Origin: a virus
Strand: one strand, 5' to 3'
IMG/VR virus record: IMGVR_UViG_3300038553_000013
Span: 1 to 28,754 of that record
DNA length: 28,754 nt
A model generated the notes under the pieces. The model was given only the letters and a program-made list of their open reading frames with translations. It searched no databases and was not told the DNA's origin. Position 1 is the stretch's first letter. Each line of letters starts with the position of its first letter. Positions 2,402-26,839 of the stretch are shown here, one piece after another. A program made the position numbers and the translations under genes.

Positions 2402-2728
2402 TCAGCCTGCCTTGGCCCTCATCCGCTCCAAATGCCGGGCTTCTGGGCTTCTGCACGGCAGCATCTCATGACAGCCACGACAGCGAGCAGAGAGGCCATC
2501 GGTGCCATAGCTGTGACGATAGAACTCCGTCTTCAGCTTTGACTGTCCGCATGCAGTACAAACCTTGCGGTCAGTGCTTGCCCTACAGCCTCGTTCAAGT
2601 GCCAATGCCACAGCGCATTGCTTGCAACGGCTGGCACGTCCAAGCTTCCCTCTCGCCTTTGGTGAGAACGCATCAGCAGCCTTGACTTCGCCGCATCTGG
2701 TGCACCGCTTCTCGTGATCGCTCACCAT
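2402..2728 (-). CDS. Twin zinc-finger phage protein, unknown function
   Basis: The 108-residue basic protein consists of two near-copies of one zinc-binding module. Finger 1 uses C9, C12, C35 and C38; finger 2 uses C57, C60, C83 and C86. In both, a CxxCG knuckle is followed by a basic loop and an RCKQC or RCRGCH knuckle. The repeat suggests an internal duplication. Such knuckles occur in the N-terminal part of many phage HNH-type proteins, but no HNH catalytic motif is visible, so a nuclease role is not claimed. It starts directly after the stop of the 218-residue gene (TAGATG) and precedes TerS. That position fits an accessory packaging or DNA-binding role (inference). Confidence 0.75.
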   Translation of the reverse strand: MVSDHEKRCTRCGEVKAADAFSPKARGKLGRASRCKQCAVALALERGCRASTDRKVCTACGQSKLKTEFYRHSYGTDGLSARCRGCHEMLPCRSPEARHLERMRAKAG

Positions 2729-5287: not shown

Positions 5288-5505
5288 CAGGGCTGCTCCC
5301 CCAGCCAAGCTTCAATGGCGGTTCCCAGTGAGTCCACACACTTGTTCCAACCATCGATCTGCTCCGGTGACATCTCACTGTCCCCGCCGGCATCCCAAAC
5401 CCGATCGAGCCGCCAGTTACACTCCGCCCATTGCCCTAAACTCAGGGCGTACTGCCGAAACAGCTCACCCACTTCTCGCTCTACGTCCGCTCGTGCTGTT
5501 TCCAT
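5287..5505 (-). CDS. Small hypothetical phage protein, 72 residues
   Basis: This acidic helical protein contains several Trp (GQWAECNWRLDRVW, GWNKCVDSL). No family is recognised. Both ends are fused to neighbours by TGATG junctions, with the primase-helicase gene upstream and the HTH-RHH gene downstream, which supports it as a true gene of the replication operon. Confidence 0.7.
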   Translation of the reverse strand: METARADVEREVGELFRQYALSLGQWAECNWRLDRVWDAGGDSEMSPEQIDGWNKCVDSLGTAIEAWLGEQP

Positions 5506-7895
5506 CAGAATGGGGCCTTATCCATTTCTTTGATCTCGCGTTTCACGTCGTCAGGGATGCCGCTCCCCGGTTGCTCGATTGGTGGTGATTGCTCCCTGTG
5601 CCGCGATGCCGGCCGATCGCTCTTCCCAGTCCACCAGACGATCTTGAGGTCATTATCGCGGCCCATGTAGCCCGCGTTGATCAGCGCCGTTGTGGTGCGC
5701 TTTAGGAAGACCTGCAGCTCTTTGTTGCGAGCTTCTATCTCTTGCTCACTAGTGGCGAAGTTCATGCCTCGGCGTACACGGGCCTTGAACGCTTCATTGG
5801 AAACGCAGCGCTTGATCTGGGGCGGTGCCGTGCTACCCTGGGGCATATCTCCACCATCGTCTGTTTGGGCTGCCACCAAGGCGTCAAACACCAGCTTCTG
5901 ATCGCCGACCAGCTTTGTGACCTCTTCCTCGCTCTGTGTTGAGCTGTGCCGGGCTTGTCTGGCGCAAACCATGGTGGTGTAAGGCTCGCCATCATCATCA
6001 AGCTCGTTGAGCGTGACCTCCTCGAGCACGAACGACCAACCCTTATCCGAAACGCCGTTCTTGTTCTTCGCTAGGCGTGCTCGCCGAATAGGCCGACCCT
6101 GCCCGTCCAGGATCGGACGAGGCTCTTCCCGGCGGTTGGCCGGAATAGACATAAGCATCTTGATCTCGATGACATTCGGCACATTGGCAACGATGGCTGT
6201 GGAGCCGCGAACCTTGTTGCCGTTCGCGTTCATGTGGTGCACCAGGCACACGGTAGCGCCGGTGCGCTCCCGGATTCGTGTGACGCGACCCAAGACCTTG
6301 CTGGCCTCACCTGAACTGTTCTCGTCCATGCCCTCTGTGGCCATGGCCAAGGTGTCGATCGTGATCAGTTCGAGGCTGCCGTAGAACTCTTTCCATTCCA
6401 GGCATTCAGCAATGAACTTGTCGACCTGTTCGTCATTCATGAGCGAGAAGCCCAGCCCGCCGTTGGCGAACGGGTCCATGATGATGTAGGGAATGTCCGC
6501 GTCGGGGCTGATGCCCTGCGCCTTGAGGTACCCCTTGTAGCGGAGCTCTGTGCCCTTCCCATCTTCTACCGCCATGTGGATAACCGTGCCCTGGCGGGTC
6601 TTCCGATCGCCATATGGGAGGCCACGCGCGACCTTCATCCCTATATCCATTACCTTGAAGGACTTCCCCACCATACTTTCACCGGCGAGGATCAGCGTGC
6701 CGTTGCGCTCGATCAGCCCTTTGATAAGCCAGTCATACACCACGGGCTTCTTGGCAATGGCATTGCTGGTCTGGGCGCCGAAGCTCGAACGAGGCGGCTT
6801 TGGCCGGTAGACCGGAAGCCCATCAATAAGCATCTGTAGCTGTTTGTAGTCACCGCCGTGCTTCTCCACCCAGTCAGTGATGTCGTTGCCGTGGTCAAAG
6901 CCAGGTACGTGCTGTGCAAAATCGAGGACTCGGATTCGGCGGGCAACGCCCTTGAGGCTCTTAGCCAGAGCATCGGCTCGATCGCCTGCCTCGTCATTGT
7001 CTAGGCAGATCACAACGTCGGCGCCTTGAAAGCAGGCCGAGTGCGTTGCGGTCCAGTGCTTGGACCCGCTGCTGTTGGTGGTGCCGCAGAAGCCGAGAGA
7101 CGTGGCAGTGTCCGCGTCCTTTTCCCCCTCAACGATGAGGACCGGCTCGCCCTCGGCGATGGCTATCTCAACGGCCGGATGCCGGTAGATCGTGTGGTCA
7201 ACACCAGTCTCGAAAGTGCGCAGTTCGGCCGTCGGCCAGTCCTGCTTTTTCTTGTGGTCGTAGGCCGACCAGTCCTTGCCGGGACCGGGGCGCATGAAGT
7301 CGCCGGCCGATAGTCCCCAAACCCATGAACCGTCGGGCAGGCCCGATGGACGGCGCTGGAGGAAGGTCTTCCAGGTGCCCTTGCCATCCTTGGTCAGGGC
7401 ATAGCTGCCGTCCGGCATTTCAATCTGAAAGCGGCACACCTGGTACAGCAACTCGCCGTCCCGATCGGTGTAGTCGTATGTCTTGACCAGCTTTCGCTTT
7501 CCCTCGGCGGCGGAGGGTTGTGGGCGGGCTTTCTCCTGCCGGGGTTGTTCCGGTGCACGACGCTCACGCGGCTGACCTGCGGCTTCGCCTGGGAGCGATA
7601 TGCCAGCCATCTGAGCGACGGTCTCGACAGCCTCGGGGAAGTCCATGCCTTGGAGTTTGGTCAGGAACTCGAAGTGATCCCCTGAGGCACCGCACCCAAA
7701 GCAATGGTAGACGCCCTTCTCTGCCTCGGCATGGAAGCTTGGGGAGTTCTCGCCGTGGAAGGGGCAACACGCCCACATGTCACCACGGCCGGGGTTTGAC
7801 TTGCCGTTGTCCCAAGAAACGTTCTGGCCGACCACATCAGTGATCGGCACAGCTGACTTGATGTTCTCTAGCAGGGCTTCGGAAAAGCGTTCCAT
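5505..7895 (-). CDS. Phage replication primase-helicase (CHC2, Toprim, RecA-like helicase)
   Basis: The 796-residue product combines the two enzymes needed at the phage fork. In order: a CHC2 zinc finger (C44-P-F-H47 ... C65-F-G-C68), a Pro/Arg-rich linker, and a Toprim domain (VEGEKD at 255-260, CLDNDEAGD around 297-305). A RepA/AAA_25-type hexameric helicase follows (Walker A GESMVGKS 405-412, Walker B ITIDT 511-515, and LVHHMNANGN...RGS near 551-565). About 200 further residues with no clear motif complete it. Known members make RNA primers and unwind duplex DNA. The ATG at 7895 overlaps the stop of the methyltransferase gene (TGATG); a GTG one codon earlier is possible. It supports self-directed phage replication from an origin not identified here. 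Confidence 0.93.
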   Translation of the reverse strand: MERFSEALLENIKSAVPITDVVGQNVSWDNGKSNPGRGDMWACCPFHGENSPSFHAEAEKGVYHCFGCGASGDHFEFLTKLQGMDFPEAVETVAQMAGISLPGEAAGQPRERRAPEQPRQEKARPQPSAAEGKRKLVKTYDYTDRDGELLYQVCRFQIEMPDGSYALTKDGKGTWKTFLQRRPSGLPDGSWVWGLSAGDFMRPGPGKDWSAYDHKKKQDWPTAELRTFETGVDHTIYRHPAVEIAIAEGEPVLIVEGEKDADTATSLGFCGTTNSSGSKHWTATHSACFQGADVVICLDNDEAGDRADALAKSLKGVARRIRVLDFAQHVPGFDHGNDITDWVEKHGGDYKQLQMLIDGLPVYRPKPPRSSFGAQTSNAIAKKPVVYDWLIKGLIERNGTLILAGESMVGKSFKVMDIGMKVARGLPYGDRKTRQGTVIHMAVEDGKGTELRYKGYLKAQGISPDADIPYIIMDPFANGGLGFSLMNDEQVDKFIAECLEWKEFYGSLELITIDTLAMATEGMDENSSGEASKVLGRVTRIRERTGATVCLVHHMNANGNKVRGSTAIVANVPNVIEIKMLMSIPANRREEPRPILDGQGRPIRRARLAKNKNGVSDKGWSFVLEEVTLNELDDDGEPYTTMVCARQARHSSTQSEEEVTKLVGDQKLVFDALVAAQTDDGGDMPQGSTAPPQIKRCVSNEAFKARVRRGMNFATSEQEIEARNKELQVFLKRTTTALINAGYMGRDNDLKIVWWTGKSDRPASRHREQSPPIEQPGSGIPDDVKREIKEMDKAPF

Positions 7896-9418
7896 CACAG
7901 CGCCTCCACCATCTGGATTCGCTCGCCGATCACACGCATCACGTTGACCGCCATGCTGTTGCCGAGCGCCTTGTATCTAGGGCCGTCAGCCGCAGGCTTG
8001 CCGCGATGCGGTATGGCAGTGAAATCGTCAGGAAAGCCTTGGAGGCGCTCGCACTCGCGTGGAGTTAATCGACGAACCGCCCATGCTGTTTGAACTGCCA
8101 CGCTGGTGCAGTCGGTGTCGAGCGTGTAGGTCGAGCCGTCATCGAGGTAGCTCTTGCCAATGGTCTTGTTGCCGCCAGCCTTGGGATTGAAAGCCACGGC
8201 CTGCACTTCGGCGCGGGCCTCAACAGTGTAGGCAATTCCCTCTTGGACGCCAATGCCGTCAGGGCCGCTGGTCGGGTTCTCACGAACTGCTCCAGCTTGG
8301 ATGGCATGCGCAACGATGAAATCGCTCTCTGACTTCATGCCATTTGGATGGTCAGTGGTGCGCTGCCCGAGAGTGCCAGCGACCTGCTGCGCTACAAGGT
8401 TTGTGTCATCCTCTTGACGCCGACCAGCATAGCCGCCCTTACCAGCACTCTCTGCACCTCGAGTTAGTGAGGCAGCTACCACCGGCACAATGGGCGTTCC
8501 ACGCCCGCTGCCATCTTCACCGGCGTCAAAGCCTTCGCCGCGCAATGAATGGGCAACCAGCAGACCTTCTCGGCTCTCATGGTCACCATATGGATTGCTG
8601 GTAATCGCAGGCGCAGCGGTAGCGACTAGCGTCTCCGTCTCCGTCTCCGTCTCCGCGTCGAGGCTCTGCTGAGCGCTTGCTGTCAAGCAATACCCAACAT
8701 CCCCAGAGTTCGCGATCAAGCCGCCGTCGAGATCGAAGTCAGTTCCGAGGCCGCCACCACCCGAAGGGCGAGCGCTAATTGTTGGGGCAACTCTTTGCCC
8801 CGCTTGTCGGCGCGGCGCAGGATCCCCGCGCAGGCTCGCGGCGTCAAATAGTACCGCAGCGGCACGTCGCCAGTCTCCAAGATATCCGACAACGAACACA
8901 CGGCGTCGACGTTGCGGAACGGCCCACTCGTGTCCATGTGCTCGACAGAACTGAGCGTCAAGCACTCGGTAGGCGAACCCATACCCGAGTTCCCCCAACG
9001 CTCCGAGGAAGGAGCCAAAATCCCGTCCGTCATTGGAGGACAAAACGCCGGGGACATTCTCCCAGACCAGCCAGCGGGGGCGATATCGTGCAGCAATGGC
9101 AAGATAGGTGAGCATGAGGTTGCCCCTGGGGTCAGCCAATCCGGCTCTGAGCCCCGCGACCGAAAAGGACTGGCAGGGCGTTCCTCCAACAAGAAGTCCA
9201 ATTGCATAGTCGGGCCACTCCTGAAACCGGGTCATGTCGCCGAGGTTCGGCACACCATTGGTGGAAGCCACCTCACCCGGCATGTTGCTGCCGTAGTGGT
9301 GCGCCAGCACAGCGCTTGGAAACTTCTCAATTTCGCTGAAGAATGCAGGCGTCCAGCCGAGTGGATGCCAAGCCATGGTTGCCGCCTCAATGCCGCTGCA
9401 GACGCTGCCGTAGATCAT
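7895..9418 (-). CDS. DNA (cytosine-5) methyltransferase with repeat-rich insert
   Basis: The 507-residue enzyme transfers a methyl group from SAM to C5 of cytosine in DNA. Seen: motif I SVCSGIEAA (5-13), motif IV PCQSFS with catalytic C82, motif VI ENV (120-122), motif VIII QRRRR (169-173), and C-terminal motifs LTPRECERLQGFP and YKALGNSMAVNV. Between motif VIII and the C-terminal motifs sits an unusually long target-recognition region of about 240 residues. It is built from degenerate Gly/Asp/Thr-rich units and carries a TETETETE tract encoded by four exact hexamers (8631-8654). The start overlaps the preceding stop as ATGA. No cognate restriction endonuclease is visible, so a solitary phage methylase protecting DNA from host restriction is likely. 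Confidence 0.93.
   Translation of the reverse strand: MIYGSVCSGIEAATMAWHPLGWTPAFFSEIEKFPSAVLAHHYGSNMPGEVASTNGVPNLGDMTRFQEWPDYAIGLLVGGTPCQSFSVAGLRAGLADPRGNLMLTYLAIAARYRPRWLVWENVPGVLSSNDGRDFGSFLGALGELGYGFAYRVLDAQFCRAHGHEWAVPQRRRRVFVVGYLGDWRRAAAVLFDAASLRGDPAPRRQAGQRVAPTISARPSGGGGLGTDFDLDGGLIANSGDVGYCLTASAQQSLDAETETETETLVATAAPAITSNPYGDHESREGLLVAHSLRGEGFDAGEDGSGRGTPIVPVVAASLTRGAESAGKGGYAGRRQEDDTNLVAQQVAGTLGQRTTDHPNGMKSESDFIVAHAIQAGAVRENPTSGPDGIGVQEGIAYTVEARAEVQAVAFNPKAGGNKTIGKSYLDDGSTYTLDTDCTSVAVQTAWAVRRLTPRECERLQGFPDDFTAIPHRGKPAADGPRYKALGNSMAVNVMRVIGERIQMVEAL
8631..8654. repeat. Hexanucleotide tandem repeat inside the cytosine methyltransferase gene
   Basis: Four perfect copies of GTCTCC (plus strand) encode alternating Thr-Glu within the target-recognition region. 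Gain or loss of a unit adds or removes two residues without shifting the frame, so slippage could vary the protein length. Confidence 0.9.
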
Positions 9419-9732
9419 GCCGCCGCCTTCGCCGGCTCGCGGGCCAGTTCAATTTCAGCGAGCACCACTATGGCGTCGAAAGCTGCAGGGTTGCGTACCG
9501 CCAGTAGGAACAGCGAGCTCCATGCGTCAGCTTTGTTGACCATTGCCTCTATCGTCTGGGCGCCCTGCTTTAGGCAGCCAGTGTCATAGATGCGAGCACT
9601 ATAGAGGTCCGCTTGGACGGTAGTGATCGTGGGGTTTTCCAGGAGCGACTTTGGCCACTCAGTTTCGTGCTCCCGCGCCACGTTTCTGATCGCAGTTACG
9701 ATATCGAGAAGCCGTTTACCCTTGTCCGTCAT
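9415..9732 (-). CDS. Hypothetical phage protein, 105 residues
   Basis: This helical protein begins MTDKGKRLLDIVTAIRNVA and ends with an Ala-rich tail. No family is recognised. It is linked by ATGA junctions to the GcrA-like gene before it and the cytosine methyltransferase after it. It therefore belongs to the same translational chain and could be an accessory of either neighbour. Confidence 0.7.
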   Translation of the reverse strand: MTDKGKRLLDIVTAIRNVAREHETEWPKSLLENPTITTVQADLYSARIYDTGCLKQGAQTIEAMVNKADAWSSLFLLAVRNPAAFDAIVVLAEIELAREPAKAAA

Positions 9733-10193
9733 GGCCGCACGGCCTTGGACACGGAACGCTGGGTATGTTCGGGACAGTACGTGCCGCTGGGGATGTAGAT
9801 GCCGCAGAACAGTGTTCCGCTGCCCTCACCCGTTACCGGCCATCGGCAGGTGTGGTGGTCCAGGTCCATGATACCGAGCAGGTGGGTGACGTCGACGCCC
9901 TCACCATCCTTTATGTCGTGGGGCTCGCGTCCGGCACGCTTGCGGGCGGCTTTGGCTACAATAGCGTGAGCCCTTGGCGCACCCTTGTTGCCGTGCTGCT
10001 TAGCGGGTGCGGACTTGAAGCCTAGAAGCCTGACGTTGTTTCGATCGCAGAAGCCGCATACAGCTGATCGTGATGCGTTGCGGAAGTTGTCGGCGATCTG
10101 AGCAGCGGAGAGCCCATCAGCCACCATCGGGCGGATGATTTTTAGCCGAGCCTCGCCCGATAGCATTGTCCAGTTCGGAAGTACGTCAAGCAT
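9729..10193 (-). CDS. GcrA-family transcription regulator
   Basis: The 154-residue product has both halves of GcrA. The N-terminal helix-turn-helix (VADGLSAAQIADNF...SRSAV, about 24-45) is followed by a basic linker. The C-terminal block CRWPVTG...LFCG...YCPEHTQRS (about 116-147) is the part that contacts RNA polymerase sigma-70 in Caulobacter GcrA. In that host GcrA activates promoters in a manner that depends on adenine methylation by CcrM (established for the family). Here it overlaps by 8 bases the end of an NPPF methyltransferase gene, a suggestive pairing. The ATG at 10193 is chosen because the domain starts there; upstream in-frame residues are low-complexity. It probably tunes host or phage transcription during development (inference). 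Confidence 0.85.
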   Translation of the reverse strand: MLDVLPNWTMLSGEARLKIIRPMVADGLSAAQIADNFRNASRSAVCGFCDRNNVRLLGFKSAPAKQHGNKGAPRAHAIVAKAARKRAGREPHDIKDGEGVDVTHLLGIMDLDHHTCRWPVTGEGSGTLFCGIYIPSGTYCPEHTQRSVSKAVRP

Positions 10194-10875
10194 CGGCGGT
10201 CTCCAGATGATTGAAGAGTTCGTGCTGCCTGGCGTCTTTGCGATCGAGCATGCGCAGGACTGTTTCGCCCTGGCGCTCCTTGTCCCAAACGAACCAAGCG
10301 TTGAGCATTGGCGGGGCGCCCTGCCCCGTAAAATCGATCTTCCAGCGCATGAGGTAGACGCGGGCGGGAGGATGTGCGGCATAGAACGGGGCCAGCCCGC
10401 CAGCTCCAGGCCAGCCCCAGTTCATCAGCAGCGCCATGTATTCGACGCCAATGGTCTCAAGAGCATGGCGAAGCCAGCGGGCCTTACCATTGCCCCATCC
10501 ACACTCGGAGAACGGCGGGTTCGTCACGATGGCCTTGGGCCCGCTGGTGAACTGGTAGAAATCGGCGATCATCGCGCCGCAGCCGCGGTCAACCAGGTCC
10601 GACTTCTGGACCTTCAGCCCTAAGGCTTCCATCTCGCGGACCATTGCACCGTCGCCAGCAGCAGGCTCCCAAATGCAAGGGAAGTCACGCAGACGATTTA
10701 TCTCGGCATGTAACAGTGCCCGAGTGGGTTCTGGTGGCGTGGGGTAGAAGTCGTCACGCTCCCGCTCGAGGCCCTCGTCCGACTTGGCGAAGGTGCCGTC
10801 GAGCAGTTGAACCACGACCGGCTTCGGCGTCTTTCCAGTTGCGCGGAAGAGCCCGCGTGCCGACGCGGCCGTCAA
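10186..10875 (-). CDS. DNA methyltransferase-like protein with NPPF motif (TTG start)
   Basis: The 229-residue product has the SAM-dependent fold of amino-methylating DNA enzymes: DFYPTPPEPTRALL (about 43-55), motif I EPAAGDG (70-76) and catalytic motif IV NPPF (119-122). This order is typical of phage N6-adenine-type methylases, but the target base and site cannot be read from sequence. No ATG lies near the conserved start. The TTG at 10875 is chosen because AGGAG sits 8 bases before it and it overlaps the upstream stop. A longer frame would run far into the neighbouring gene. It is followed with an 8-base overlap by the GcrA-like gene, and a cytosine methylase lies two genes further on. Confidence 0.75.
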   Translation of the reverse strand: MTAASARGLFRATGKTPKPVVVQLLDGTFAKSDEGLERERDDFYPTPPEPTRALLHAEINRLRDFPCIWEPAAGDGAMVREMEALGLKVQKSDLVDRGCGAMIADFYQFTSGPKAIVTNPPFSECGWGNGKARWLRHALETIGVEYMALLMNWGWPGAGGLAPFYAAHPPARVYLMRWKIDFTGQGAPPMLNAWFVWDKERQGETVLRMLDRKDARQHELFNHLETADA

Positions 10876-11822
10876 AGTACCGGCTCCTCGTACATGTCGA
10901 GGGCTTCCTTGTAGCGGGCGCGAACCGCGACCATCTGGCGCTCGGTGCCCTTCCACGCATAGGCGTTGTCATCCACCAAGCCTATGCAGGACTGATGCAG
11001 ATACTTGCCATCGCGATTGCCTGTACGGAGGCGGAATAGCTGCCCCCTGGCGTGCTTTGCCGCTGGGCGGGAGGTTGGTGGCTTGGGAGGGCTCACAGGC
11101 GCCACAGACTGCGACTGAAGCTGTATCGCATCCTTCAGCGTGTCTGTGATCTTCGCTACCCTTCTCGCCTCGAACTCTGCCTGTGTTGGTAGTCCAAGGC
11201 CGTGGCAGCGCGACACTGCCGATATTTTAAAGACCGTCACGCCTAAGGCTTCACCAATAAGCTTAGCAGGCCACTCGGGCTGGCGGTCGTGCATTTCCTT
11301 GATGCGATCGATCAAACTATCATCTGCAGCCGGAGCGGCAGAGGCCGGAGCCTCCACCGGCTTACCCGAGCTTGTCTGTAATCCGGTACTCAGGTGCGCG
11401 GTATGTCCGGACATACCTTCGCCGTTCGCAGTAGCGGCGGCTTCCAGGGGCGCATCCCCTTCCTGAGCAATTTGACCCCGCACCGTGGCTGCAGGTTCGC
11501 GCAAATCATCCTCACCGACAAATCCACGCGATGCCGGGGGAAGCTCGTCAGCCGTTTCCGGCTGAATAGATTGACCGTCTACGATGCCCTCCGCACGGTC
11601 GAGAGAGGTTGGAGTGGCAGCACCTTGGGGAGTCTGCGGCCCGGCGGCGCCCGCCTGCATCTGCGCAGCCGTTGCAGGCGACTGCGGTTCGTGATCGCCC
11701 ACCAGCTCACGAGCTTGGGTGATGAAGTCTTGCCACCGATCATTGTCTGCCAACAGGCGGTGGATTTCGCGGTCGTTCTGAGCAATGCGGTTCTTCGCCT
11801 GCTCTATGATGTCCAAGGTCAT
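10872..11822 (-). CDS. Coiled-coil and HTH protein, unknown phage regulator
   Basis: The 316-residue product has three parts. Residues 1-45 form a charged helix likely to coil. About 46-165 is a Pro/Ala/Thr/Gln-rich linker of low complexity. About 170-212 (IKEMHDRQPEWPAKLIGEALG...HGLGLP) has the pattern of a GcrA-like helix-turn-helix. A C-terminal part (GQLFRLRTGNRDGKYLHQ, then AYAWKGTERQMVAVRARYKEA) may bind nucleic acid or a partner. No family name can be given. It begins 2 bases after the resolvase stop. Its own stop overlaps the TTG start of the methyltransferase. Confidence 0.7.
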   Translation of the reverse strand: MTLDIIEQAKNRIAQNDREIHRLLADNDRWQDFITQARELVGDHEPQSPATAAQMQAGAAGPQTPQGAATPTSLDRAEGIVDGQSIQPETADELPPASRGFVGEDDLREPAATVRGQIAQEGDAPLEAAATANGEGMSGHTAHLSTGLQTSSGKPVEAPASAAPAADDSLIDRIKEMHDRQPEWPAKLIGEALGVTVFKISAVSRCHGLGLPTQAEFEARRVAKITDTLKDAIQLQSQSVAPVSPPKPPTSRPAAKHARGQLFRLRTGNRDGKYLHQSCIGLVDDNAYAWKGTERQMVAVRARYKEALDMYEEPVL

Positions 11823-11824
11823 CG

Positions 11825-12307
11825 CTAGAAGCTCACATCTGCGCGCTGGGCCGTATCAGCCTGAGCGAACTTGAAATCGAATAAGGCCTGGGCGTCGGCC
11901 TCGTTGTCGTCCGCCGGAGACAGCCCACGACGTTCGGACTCGGCGATCATTGCCGCCTTGTCGGCGTTACCCTTCCCCGTCCAGTGCTTCTTGATGGTGC
12001 CAACCGGCACCGCCTCGTATGGAATGCTGCGCTCCTCGCACCAGGCCGTCAGGGTCGCCATCAACCCCCCATACACGTGCGCAGCATCAGTCGCGGCGTG
12101 GCGCCGGACTTCTTCAAATGCCACCTGATCAATCGGGTAAGCGCCGGACATCTCATTGAGCCAACCCCGAAACTTGACGAACCGCATGCCGCCGCCTTCA
12201 AACCGGCCCGGCTTGAAGTTGGCGGTGCCGCTGGAGCTGGCCGCGGCGTTGCCAACGCAAAACCCTGTGGTTGTGCCGAGATCGAGCGCCAGCAGACACC
12301 GGGCCAT
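11825..12307 (-). CDS. RuvC-like Holliday junction resolvase
   Basis: The 160-residue product has the RNase H-fold resolvase signature: LLALDLGTTTGF with D9, AFEEVRRH with E64/E65, and DDNEADAQALFDF with D133/D134 and E136/D138 near the C-terminus. These are the acidic residues that bind metal ions in RuvC-type enzymes. Phage members cut branched intermediates made in replication and recombination, clearing DNA for packaging. It is coupled to the previous gene by a TGATG junction at 12307. It fits with the RecE/RecT-like genes on the other arm. Confidence 0.88.
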   Translation of the reverse strand: MARCLLALDLGTTTGFCVGNAAASSSGTANFKPGRFEGGGMRFVKFRGWLNEMSGAYPIDQVAFEEVRRHAATDAAHVYGGLMATLTAWCEERSIPYEAVPVGTIKKHWTGKGNADKAAMIAESERRGLSPADDNEADAQALFDFKFAQADTAQRADVSF

Positions 12308-12732
12308 CAGTGCTTCACCTGGCTGAGTACTTCCTCGCCTTCAGCAAGTTCTGCAGCCGTAGGATCATGGGACGGCGGCGTCTCGTCGGGATCATCTGCG
12401 AGATGATCCTCGTCGTTCACCATCGAGAAGAAGCAGAACTGACCGACCGCATCCTCGAAGACCTCGATGTAGTCTTCATCGACATTGGAGGTGAGCTCTT
12501 CGATCTTACGCTCGAGCGAACGGCGCTTCAGGATTGGGTTAAGCACCTTCATCGGGATGCCCAGATCATCCTTCGCCTGCTTTTTTTGAACCTTGATCTT
12601 GTTCGCGATGCCTGCGCACTCACCCATGGCAGCGGCCATGATGGATTTCTTCTGCGCTTCCAGGCTCTCGATCGCGTCGATCACCGCGCGCATATCGTCG
12701 TCATCGTAAGAATTCTGCCGGTACTCAGTCAT
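12307..12732 (-). CDS. Hypothetical coiled-coil phage protein (weakly GapR-like)
   Basis: The 141-residue product has an Asp-rich N-terminus, then long charged helices (RAVIDAIESLEAQKKSIMAAAM, KVQKKQAKDDLGIPMKVLNPILKRRSLERKIEEL), and an acidic C-terminal tail. The pattern of a helix with an IE-LE-EKK core followed by a basic R-rich helix recalls GapR/DUF2312 nucleoid proteins. The resemblance is weak and the protein is longer. An AAGGA lies about 7 bases before the ATG. A 9-base GC hairpin lies in the gap upstream. Confidence 0.65.
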   Translation of the reverse strand: MTEYRQNSYDDDDMRAVIDAIESLEAQKKSIMAAAMGECAGIANKIKVQKKQAKDDLGIPMKVLNPILKRRSLERKIEELTSNVDEDYIEVFEDAVGQFCFFSMVNDEDHLADDPDETPPSHDPTAAELAEGEEVLSQVKH

Positions 12733-25689: not shown

Positions 25690-25997
25690 TAGTACGAGAT
25701 AATCTGATTGCGGCTAGAGCGCTGATCGATACGCCGGAGAAGTGGCAAAAGGGTCGCTTTAGGTCAGAGCGTAAAACCTACCGTTGCTACTGCGCGCTGG
25801 GTGCGTTGTTTGAGGTTTGCGGAACAGGCACGGATGCCCTTGCCTCATGTCGGGCTGCACTCATCAACGCTCTGCCTGTCGCTTGGCAACCTCGGATGAC
25901 AGCCCGCTACAACGATCTGCCATCCACCACCCACGCCGATATTCTTTCTCTGTTCGACCGCGCCATCGCCGCCCAGCCAGAAGGAAGCCAGAGATGA
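25686..25997 (+). CDS. DUF6197-like protein, 103 residues (GTG start)
   Basis: The block AARALIDTPEKWQKGRF followed by YRCYCALGALFEVC matches the order of DUF6197 proteins, including the WCALGA-type motif (here CYCALGA). The call is by eye. The GTG at 25686 overlaps the previous stop as GTGA. Function of the family is unknown. Confidence 0.6.
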   Translation: MIVRDNLIAARALIDTPEKWQKGRFRSERKTYRCYCALGALFEVCGTGTDALASCRAALINALPVAWQPRMTARYNDLPSTTHADILSLFDRAIAAQPEGSQR

Positions 25998-26839
25998 GCG
26001 TGGAGATCCTGCCTTGCCCGTTTTGTGGGTCGGTGGAAATTCAAACTGACGGCCCGTGCTACACGCAATTTATGTGCAGCGACTGCGGCGCGGCAACCTA
26101 TGACCAAGAGAGCCACGAAGCAGCCATTGCCGCTTGGAACTCCCGCCCCATCCCTGCGCTAGAAGCAATGGGGGAGGATAAGCTGGGGGAGATGCTGGCA
26201 GGGCTGGAAGGTGTTACGCCGGGGCCTTGGGAAGCAGATCAAAACTTACCGATCAATCGAAAGCCGCGAGTGCATGGCGGTGATGGTTCGCTGATCTGCG
26301 AAATTGGCAACATGGCGATGGATCAGGATCAATGGGAAAGGGACGCCGCCCATATTGCTCGCTGCGATCCGCAAACCATCCGGTCGCTCATCACCCGCCT
26401 CCAAGCCGCAGAGGCCCTTGTAGAGCGGCTAAAGCTTGAGGCCCAAGCTCACGCCTCAGAAGCCCGGACGGCCAACAGCACCATCTACGAGATTTATCAG
26501 GTCATCAGCGGCGGCAAAGGCGAGCCGGGAAACTGGAATGGCGCTGAACCCGTACGCGCTTATGTCCAAGCCGCAGAGGCCAAGAACCAGGCGTATGCCG
26601 AGGCGCTGGAGTGGCAACCGATTGAGACTGCGCCGAAGGATGGGACGGTGATCTTGGCCGTCACAGTCGAAGCCGCCAATCCTAGCGCCCGGATGTCGTG
26701 GTTTGAAAATGGCGTGTGGGTTCGCATCTGGAAACCAGAAAAGTTTGTAATCCCTGGGCCGGTGCGCTGGTGGCCCACTCATTGGCAACCGCTTCCCAAT
26801 CCTCCTATCGCCACCCTCCAACAGGGAGCCAAGCCATGA
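25994..26839 (+). CDS. Lar-like, Ea22-like and DUF551-like fusion protein
   Basis: The 281-residue product joins three modules. Residues 1-52 form a Lar-type zinc ribbon (LPCPFCGS, C8/C11, and CSDCG, C28/C31, followed by AIAAWNSRP) as in restriction-alleviation proteins. About 66-140 has TPGPWEAD and AAHIARCDPQTIRSLI, as in Ea22/Ead-type proteins. About 140-205 is an Ala-rich coil. About 207-271 has EWQPIETAPKDGTVI and WWPTHWQPLPNPP, the DUF551 pattern. Such parts usually occur in separate phage genes. A link to countering host restriction rests on the first module alone. Confidence 0.78.
   Translation: MSVEILPCPFCGSVEIQTDGPCYTQFMCSDCGAATYDQESHEAAIAAWNSRPIPALEAMGEDKLGEMLAGLEGVTPGPWEADQNLPINRKPRVHGGDGSLICEIGNMAMDQDQWERDAAHIARCDPQTIRSLITRLQAAEALVERLKLEAQAHASEARTANSTIYEIYQVISGGKGEPGNWNGAEPVRAYVQAAEAKNQAYAEALEWQPIETAPKDGTVILAVTVEAANPSARMSWFENGVWVRIWKPEKFVIPGPVRWWPTHWQPLPNPPIATLQQGAKP

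Follow-up and report, generated by a model that had tools for sequence, protein, structure and literature searches.

A DNA methyltransferase gene adjoining a GcrA-family gene in the replication operon of a probable temperate phage

The locus and its compact operon

The window, by which we mean the whole virus record of 28.7 kb that was analysed, carries on its minus strand a gene for a DNA methyltransferase followed by a GcrA-family gene. Major features of the locus are summarized in Table 1. The two genes are likely part of a single operon and would then be co-transcribed, in agreement with a preliminary description of this DNA in which the pair was made from one message. The same description gave both as minus-strand genes with an overlap of 8 bases, which the coordinates confirm, and regarded them as fused, which does not hold: they are two separate ORFs, and nearly all junctions of the operon overlap, by 4 bp at 10875/10872, 9732/9729, 9418/9415 and 7898/7895, the genes otherwise touching each other. 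Because the neighbouring junctions overlap by 4 bp, the 8-bp overlap is that of an ordinary compact operon, and we reject it as a sign of any special coupling between the methyltransferase and GcrA.

The operon also encodes a primase-helicase, a C5-cytosine DNA methyltransferase and a RuvC-like resolvase. Elsewhere on the record there are genes for exonuclease VIII, RecT, a repressor-like protein and an integrase, indicating that the virus is probably a temperate phage. The product of 12307-12732 has a weak match to the GapR-like DNA-binding family (PF10073, E 0.0018, under the cut-off) and is perhaps another alphaproteobacterial chromosome-biology protein in this operon. At the two ends of the window (2402-2728 and 25817-26839), there are protein matches to Lar-like restriction-alleviation or endonuclease zinc-finger families.

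Table 1. Features of the methyltransferase/GcrA operon in the window
Feature	Positions	Strand	Basis
Primase-helicase, same operon	5505..7898	-	Pfam Zn_ribbon_DnaG, AAA_25
C5-cytosine DNA methyltransferase, same operon	7895..9418	-	PF00145 E 3.6e-45
GcrA-family sigma70 cofactor, 154 aa, ATG at 10193	9729..10193	-	PF07750, Caulobacter GcrA 7ye1_G
GcrA sigma-interacting domain (aa 105-148), CRWP...FCG...YCPEH	9750..9881	-	5yix_B match
GcrA DNA-binding helix-turn-helix (aa 8-54), recognition helix ASRSAVCGFCDRNNV altered	10032..10172	-	Alignment of 40 phage GcrAs
Methyltransferase stop/GcrA start overlap, 8 bp	10186..10193	-	Sequence
Probable gamma-class (M.TaqI-like) N6-adenine DNA methyltransferase, NPPF, 229 aa, TTG start	10186..10875	-	phrog_799, AF2 fold, relatives
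Methyltransferase catalytic motif NPPF	10510..10521	-	Sequence
Methyltransferase SAM-binding motif I WEPAAGDGAM	10642..10671	-	Sequence
RuvC-like resolvase, same operon	11825..12307	-	phrog_159 E 2.2e-25

The methyltransferase and its probable target

The methyltransferase gene starts with a TTG at 10875, within a TTGA that overlaps the TGA stop of the gene at 10872-11822. Its product matches the profile phrog_799 (DNA methyltransferase) with an E-value of 1.6e-54, while a search against Pfam gave zero matches; its sequence features are METHYLTRANSFERASE, and the initial assignment to the NPPF methyltransferases is correct. G73 and G75 of motif I and the catalytic N118-P119-P120 are unchanged in 27 relatives. 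Among DNA enzymes, the one closest to its AlphaFold model (AF2, pLDDT 76) is M.TaqI, a gamma-class N6-adenine methyltransferase (TM 0.50-0.51 by query length, Foldseek E about 1e-5). Judged by motifs and predicted fold, the enzyme is a probable N6-adenine DNA methylase. The lack of a Pfam match, the NPPF motif and the M.TaqI-like fold rule out that it is a CcrM, which is a beta-class enzyme (PF01555 N6_N4_Mtase, DPPY).

We found 80 viral and 34 genomic relatives of the methyltransferase. Those at 68-87% identity come from phages and prophages of Devosia, Phyllobacterium, Brucella, Mesorhizobium and similar hosts, which are alphaproteobacteria with a GcrA of their own. The closest relatives (84-87% identity) have no neighbours in common with the window, and since the genes around the relatives are unrelated, the methyltransferase moves alone. 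One genome record titled Bacillus subtilis SK6B4 (L125) has a Hyphomicrobiales-type phage methyltransferase together with a host-type GcrA (E 3.5e-61), and is probably mislabelled or contaminated.

In Caulobacter, GcrA reads the adenine methylation written by CcrM at GANTC, and CcrM is present in the hosts of this alphaproteobacterial group. GANTC methylation has been proven experimentally for three phage enzymes unrelated to CcrM, phi2LM21_p21 and phi3LM21_p21 (HinfI protection) and PhiLM21_p027, all of them NPPF/Y enzymes whose genes lie beside replication genes (PMC5537653). All three match the family HMM of the window methyltransferase (E 1e-40 to 1e-48), so that the methylation link drawn earlier between GcrA and the methyltransferase is borne out to the extent that the family includes enzymes specific for the mark GcrA reads (PMC5537653). 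They resemble the window enzyme in their NPPF/Y family, replication-gene neighbours and alphaproteobacterial hosts, but the phi2 and phi3 enzymes are only about 31-34% identical to it (tblastn) and belong to another clade. In a tree of 75 rows, the clade of the window enzyme (31 rows) is joined to the phi2/phi3 clade with support of 93/79 and PhiLM21_p027 falls in a third clade; the three tested enzymes thus represent two clades, both outside that of the window. Pben1, which is a member of the window clade, and AmM-1 were assigned to GANTC by similarity alone (PMC6536676). No GcrA gene was identified in the examined stretches around the methyltransferase genes of the three tested phages. The window enzyme has the homology and the NPP motif of the phage NPP(F/Y/W) GANTC methyltransferases, and it fits them in location as well, since its operon also encodes a primase-helicase and RuvC. 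On these sequence grounds its target is likely GANTC, CcrM's own site.

The window contains 29 GANTC sites where 100 are expected, a 3.4-fold depletion and the lowest value among 16 comparable motifs, and its GATC frequency is normal. GANTC is depleted in all 80 methyltransferase loci (L002-L081; 0.09-0.60), with or without GcrA, as expected for phages of CcrM-bearing hosts. Because such hosts account for it and it is the same with or without GcrA, we reject the depletion as evidence of the specificity of the methyltransferase. The sites are not clearly concentrated at the phage promoters of the window: 7 of 27 lie in the about 10% of the sequence that is non-coding, and 4 of 27 just upstream of gene starts (p 0.18).

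The GcrA-family protein and its recognition helix

The product of the second gene is a GcrA-family member, as first described, matching PF07750 with an E-value of 1.7e-15 and 58.2 bits (cut-off 26.9). As a whole, it matches the Caulobacter GcrA structure 7ye1_G (E 2.5e-8), and both halves align. The DNA-binding part is a weak match by itself (5yiu, E 0.11). The C-terminal sigma-interacting domain matches 5yix_B (rmsd 2.7, TMt 0.67, E 0.034) and retains the cysteines and histidine of sigma binding, and the protein would be expected to bind sigma. The PF07750 profile also scored above its cut-off in a control genome, that of the archaeon Sulfolobus acidocaldarius.

The recognition helix is different. 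GcrAs that read methyl-GANTC have (T/S)RNAVIGKVHRL, whereas the window protein has SRSAVCGFCDRN, in which CGFCDRN replaces IGKVHRL and the changes I46C, K48F and H50D fall at near-invariant positions. The GKxHR pattern is kept in 23 of 23 complete host GcrAs but in only 4 of 14 GcrA-family genes of phages with this methyltransferase, the window included (Fisher p 2.9e-6). A few of these 14 are weak helix-only matches that score under the Pfam cut-off, and phylogenetically the rows are non-independent. The comparison was made with profile-based sets only, loci found by their recognition-helix pattern being left out as biased. With near-invariant positions of its helix changed, this GcrA-family member cannot be taken for a reader of methyl-GANTC. 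The most informative doubt about the locus concerns the reading head: the window GcrA may not read CcrM's mark.

A single-sequence search of viral_contigs and the phage collection gave no relative of the window GcrA. The nearest one found belongs to a Pseudohoeflea prophage (34%, E 6e-18), and its helix is also divergent (SKGAVVGMFTRH). Some phage GcrA-family proteins (L086, L087, L093 and L094) consist of two or three helix-turn-helix units followed by one sigma-binding domain, and the one at a Pseudohoeflea locus (L117) has a long C-terminal extension.

Association of the two genes and their possible roles

GcrA is present above the Pfam cut-off in 11 of the 80 methyltransferase records, and in 14 if weak matches are included. 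For comparison, we used phages that have relatives of the window C5 methyltransferase and look alphaproteobacterial by their GANTC depletion. GcrA was found in 2 of these 19, that is, in about 11% of phages without this methyltransferase and about 14% of those with it. There is no enrichment by this measure, for which the comparison set is a crude proxy with few members and loci of 2 kb. A baseline sought from RecT relatives yielded zero loci, as did a search with the Pseudohoeflea GcrA. The closest methyltransferase relatives (84-87% identity) are without GcrA. A fixed two-gene module is accordingly rejected, and the portable methylation-sensing switch proposed in the preliminary description fares no better, given also the altered helix of the reader.

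When both genes are present, however, they lie within 1 kb of each other on the same strand in 11 of 14 phages, in either order, two pairs of the 11 appearing to be near-identical phages. The mean was 0.56 under a uniform null and 2.3 under an operon null of +-6 kb, and 11 was never reached in 20,000 draws. The expected co-occurrence of the two genes across prophages thus fails as enrichment and stands as adjacency in unrelated phages. Conversely, 7 of 80 GcrA phages have this methyltransferase family within 4 kb, almost always directly adjacent; the usual immediate neighbours of phage GcrA are replication genes and various DNA methyltransferases. In the Pseudohoeflea prophage, the methyltransferase is followed by GcrA with an ATGA overlap, and such overlaps of the two genes also occur in L050 and, with the order reversed, in L064. 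The type of GcrA and the order and side of the genes vary among phages, which points to repeated assembly and not to one inherited module.

We give about an even chance to the reading that the two genes are a recurrently assembled phage pair of a writer and a sigma cofactor, placed in an early operon and with the reader retargeted. The setting would be a temperate phage of Hyphomicrobiales-type hosts and, within it, the early/replication operon. The N6-adenine methyltransferase would most likely methylate GANTC like the host CcrM, and would keep phage DNA methylated outside CcrM's short cell-cycle window. The GcrA-type sigma70 cofactor, its sigma-binding domain retained and its DNA-reading helix rewritten, would bring host RNA polymerase to phage-chosen, possibly methylated promoters, those of phage early/replication genes and perhaps of some host genes. 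Behind this reading are the identities of the genes, their adjacency and its recurrence, the conservation of the domains and the divergence of the helix, from which we infer that the two products are functionally coupled. Against it stand the rarity of GcrA among the methyltransferase phages, the non-canonical helix, the position of the window enzyme outside the tested clades and the lack of a clear GANTC concentration at promoters. Moreover, GcrA varies in type and side among phages and its other neighbours are replication genes, so that the co-location may reflect the early operon only. It is unlikely that the reader has evolved off the host GcrA code to read another methylated site, possibly that of the phage methyltransferase itself; if true, this would create a private class of epigenetic promoters that still uses host sigma70.

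The main alternative, rather doubtful though substantial, is that two independently useful early genes merely share an operon. The methyltransferase would mimic CcrM, protecting phage DNA or steering replication, and the GcrA-like protein would act alone on host-methylated or unmethylated promoters. This fits a methyltransferase that travels alone, a GcrA rate that is similar with and without it, hosts that already have CcrM, and replication genes that are the usual neighbours of both (see also PMC5537653). But adjacency within 1 kb is far over the operon null, and the nearest GcrA relative holds the same place behind its methyltransferase. A decoy that displaces host GcrA from sigma70 and shuts off host cell-cycle transcription is quite improbable: the conserved sigma-interacting domain and the changed DNA-reading helix would suit it, but the helix-turn-helix is still predicted with a pLDDT near 95, and the two or three such units of related phage GcrAs suggest continued DNA binding. 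That GcrA has been decaying since its capture and has no present role, as its divergent helix and sparse distribution might suggest, is very improbable, since the ORF and its sigma-interacting motifs are intact, as are the nearest relatives.

The writer and sigma-cofactor pair would resemble Caulobacter GcrA/CcrM in combining a GcrA-family sigma70 cofactor with an adenine methyltransferase that writes GcrA's mark, if GANTC-specific. It differs in that the methyltransferase is an unrelated gamma-class NPPF enzyme, the genes are adjacent and phage-borne, and the recognition helix is different. Phage-encoded PF07750 proteins are known from phiCbK-type phages (PMC3556154), which, unlike the window virus, are large (over 200 kb); in the phiCbK-related CcrBL9, no GcrA was identified in the examined stretch around its methyltransferase-family gene. 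The phiLM21-like Sinorhizobium prophages have annotated GcrA genes and, in some, a DNA methyltransferase; the accessible part of that paper names GcrA once, in a table, and leaves adjacency undescribed (PMC12429752). Phage GANTC methyltransferases have been reported (PMC5537653, PMC7139368), and phage GcrA homologues are named together with them in PMC9437464. Expression of a Brevundimonas prophage operon is GcrA-dependent (PMC7987155), and a secondary replication origin in Agrobacterium is under GcrA/GANTC control (PMC11514494). Other GcrA orthologues have been assayed for complementation of a temperature-sensitive gcrA strain of Caulobacter (PMC3667746). The literature searched, with most subscription papers outside its reach, gave no description of methyltransferase-GcrA adjacency. 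Each half is thus known in phages separately, the pairing looks unreported, and a writer and a sigma cofactor adjoining in a replication operon are a sensible extension of the known phage contacts with GcrA and CcrM. If phages repeatedly place the two side by side, the conjecture that they hijack the cell-cycle epigenetic code of alphaproteobacteria can be tested directly, and the changed recognition helices are natural variants from which to learn how methylated DNA is read by GcrA.

Some phages with this methyltransferase or GcrA gene are named for cyanobacteria, namely Microcystis phage yong2 (L278) and Synechococcus phages (H59, H60). The DNA of yong2 is GANTC-depleted (0.47), and the true hosts of these phages may be alphaproteobacteria present in the cultures.
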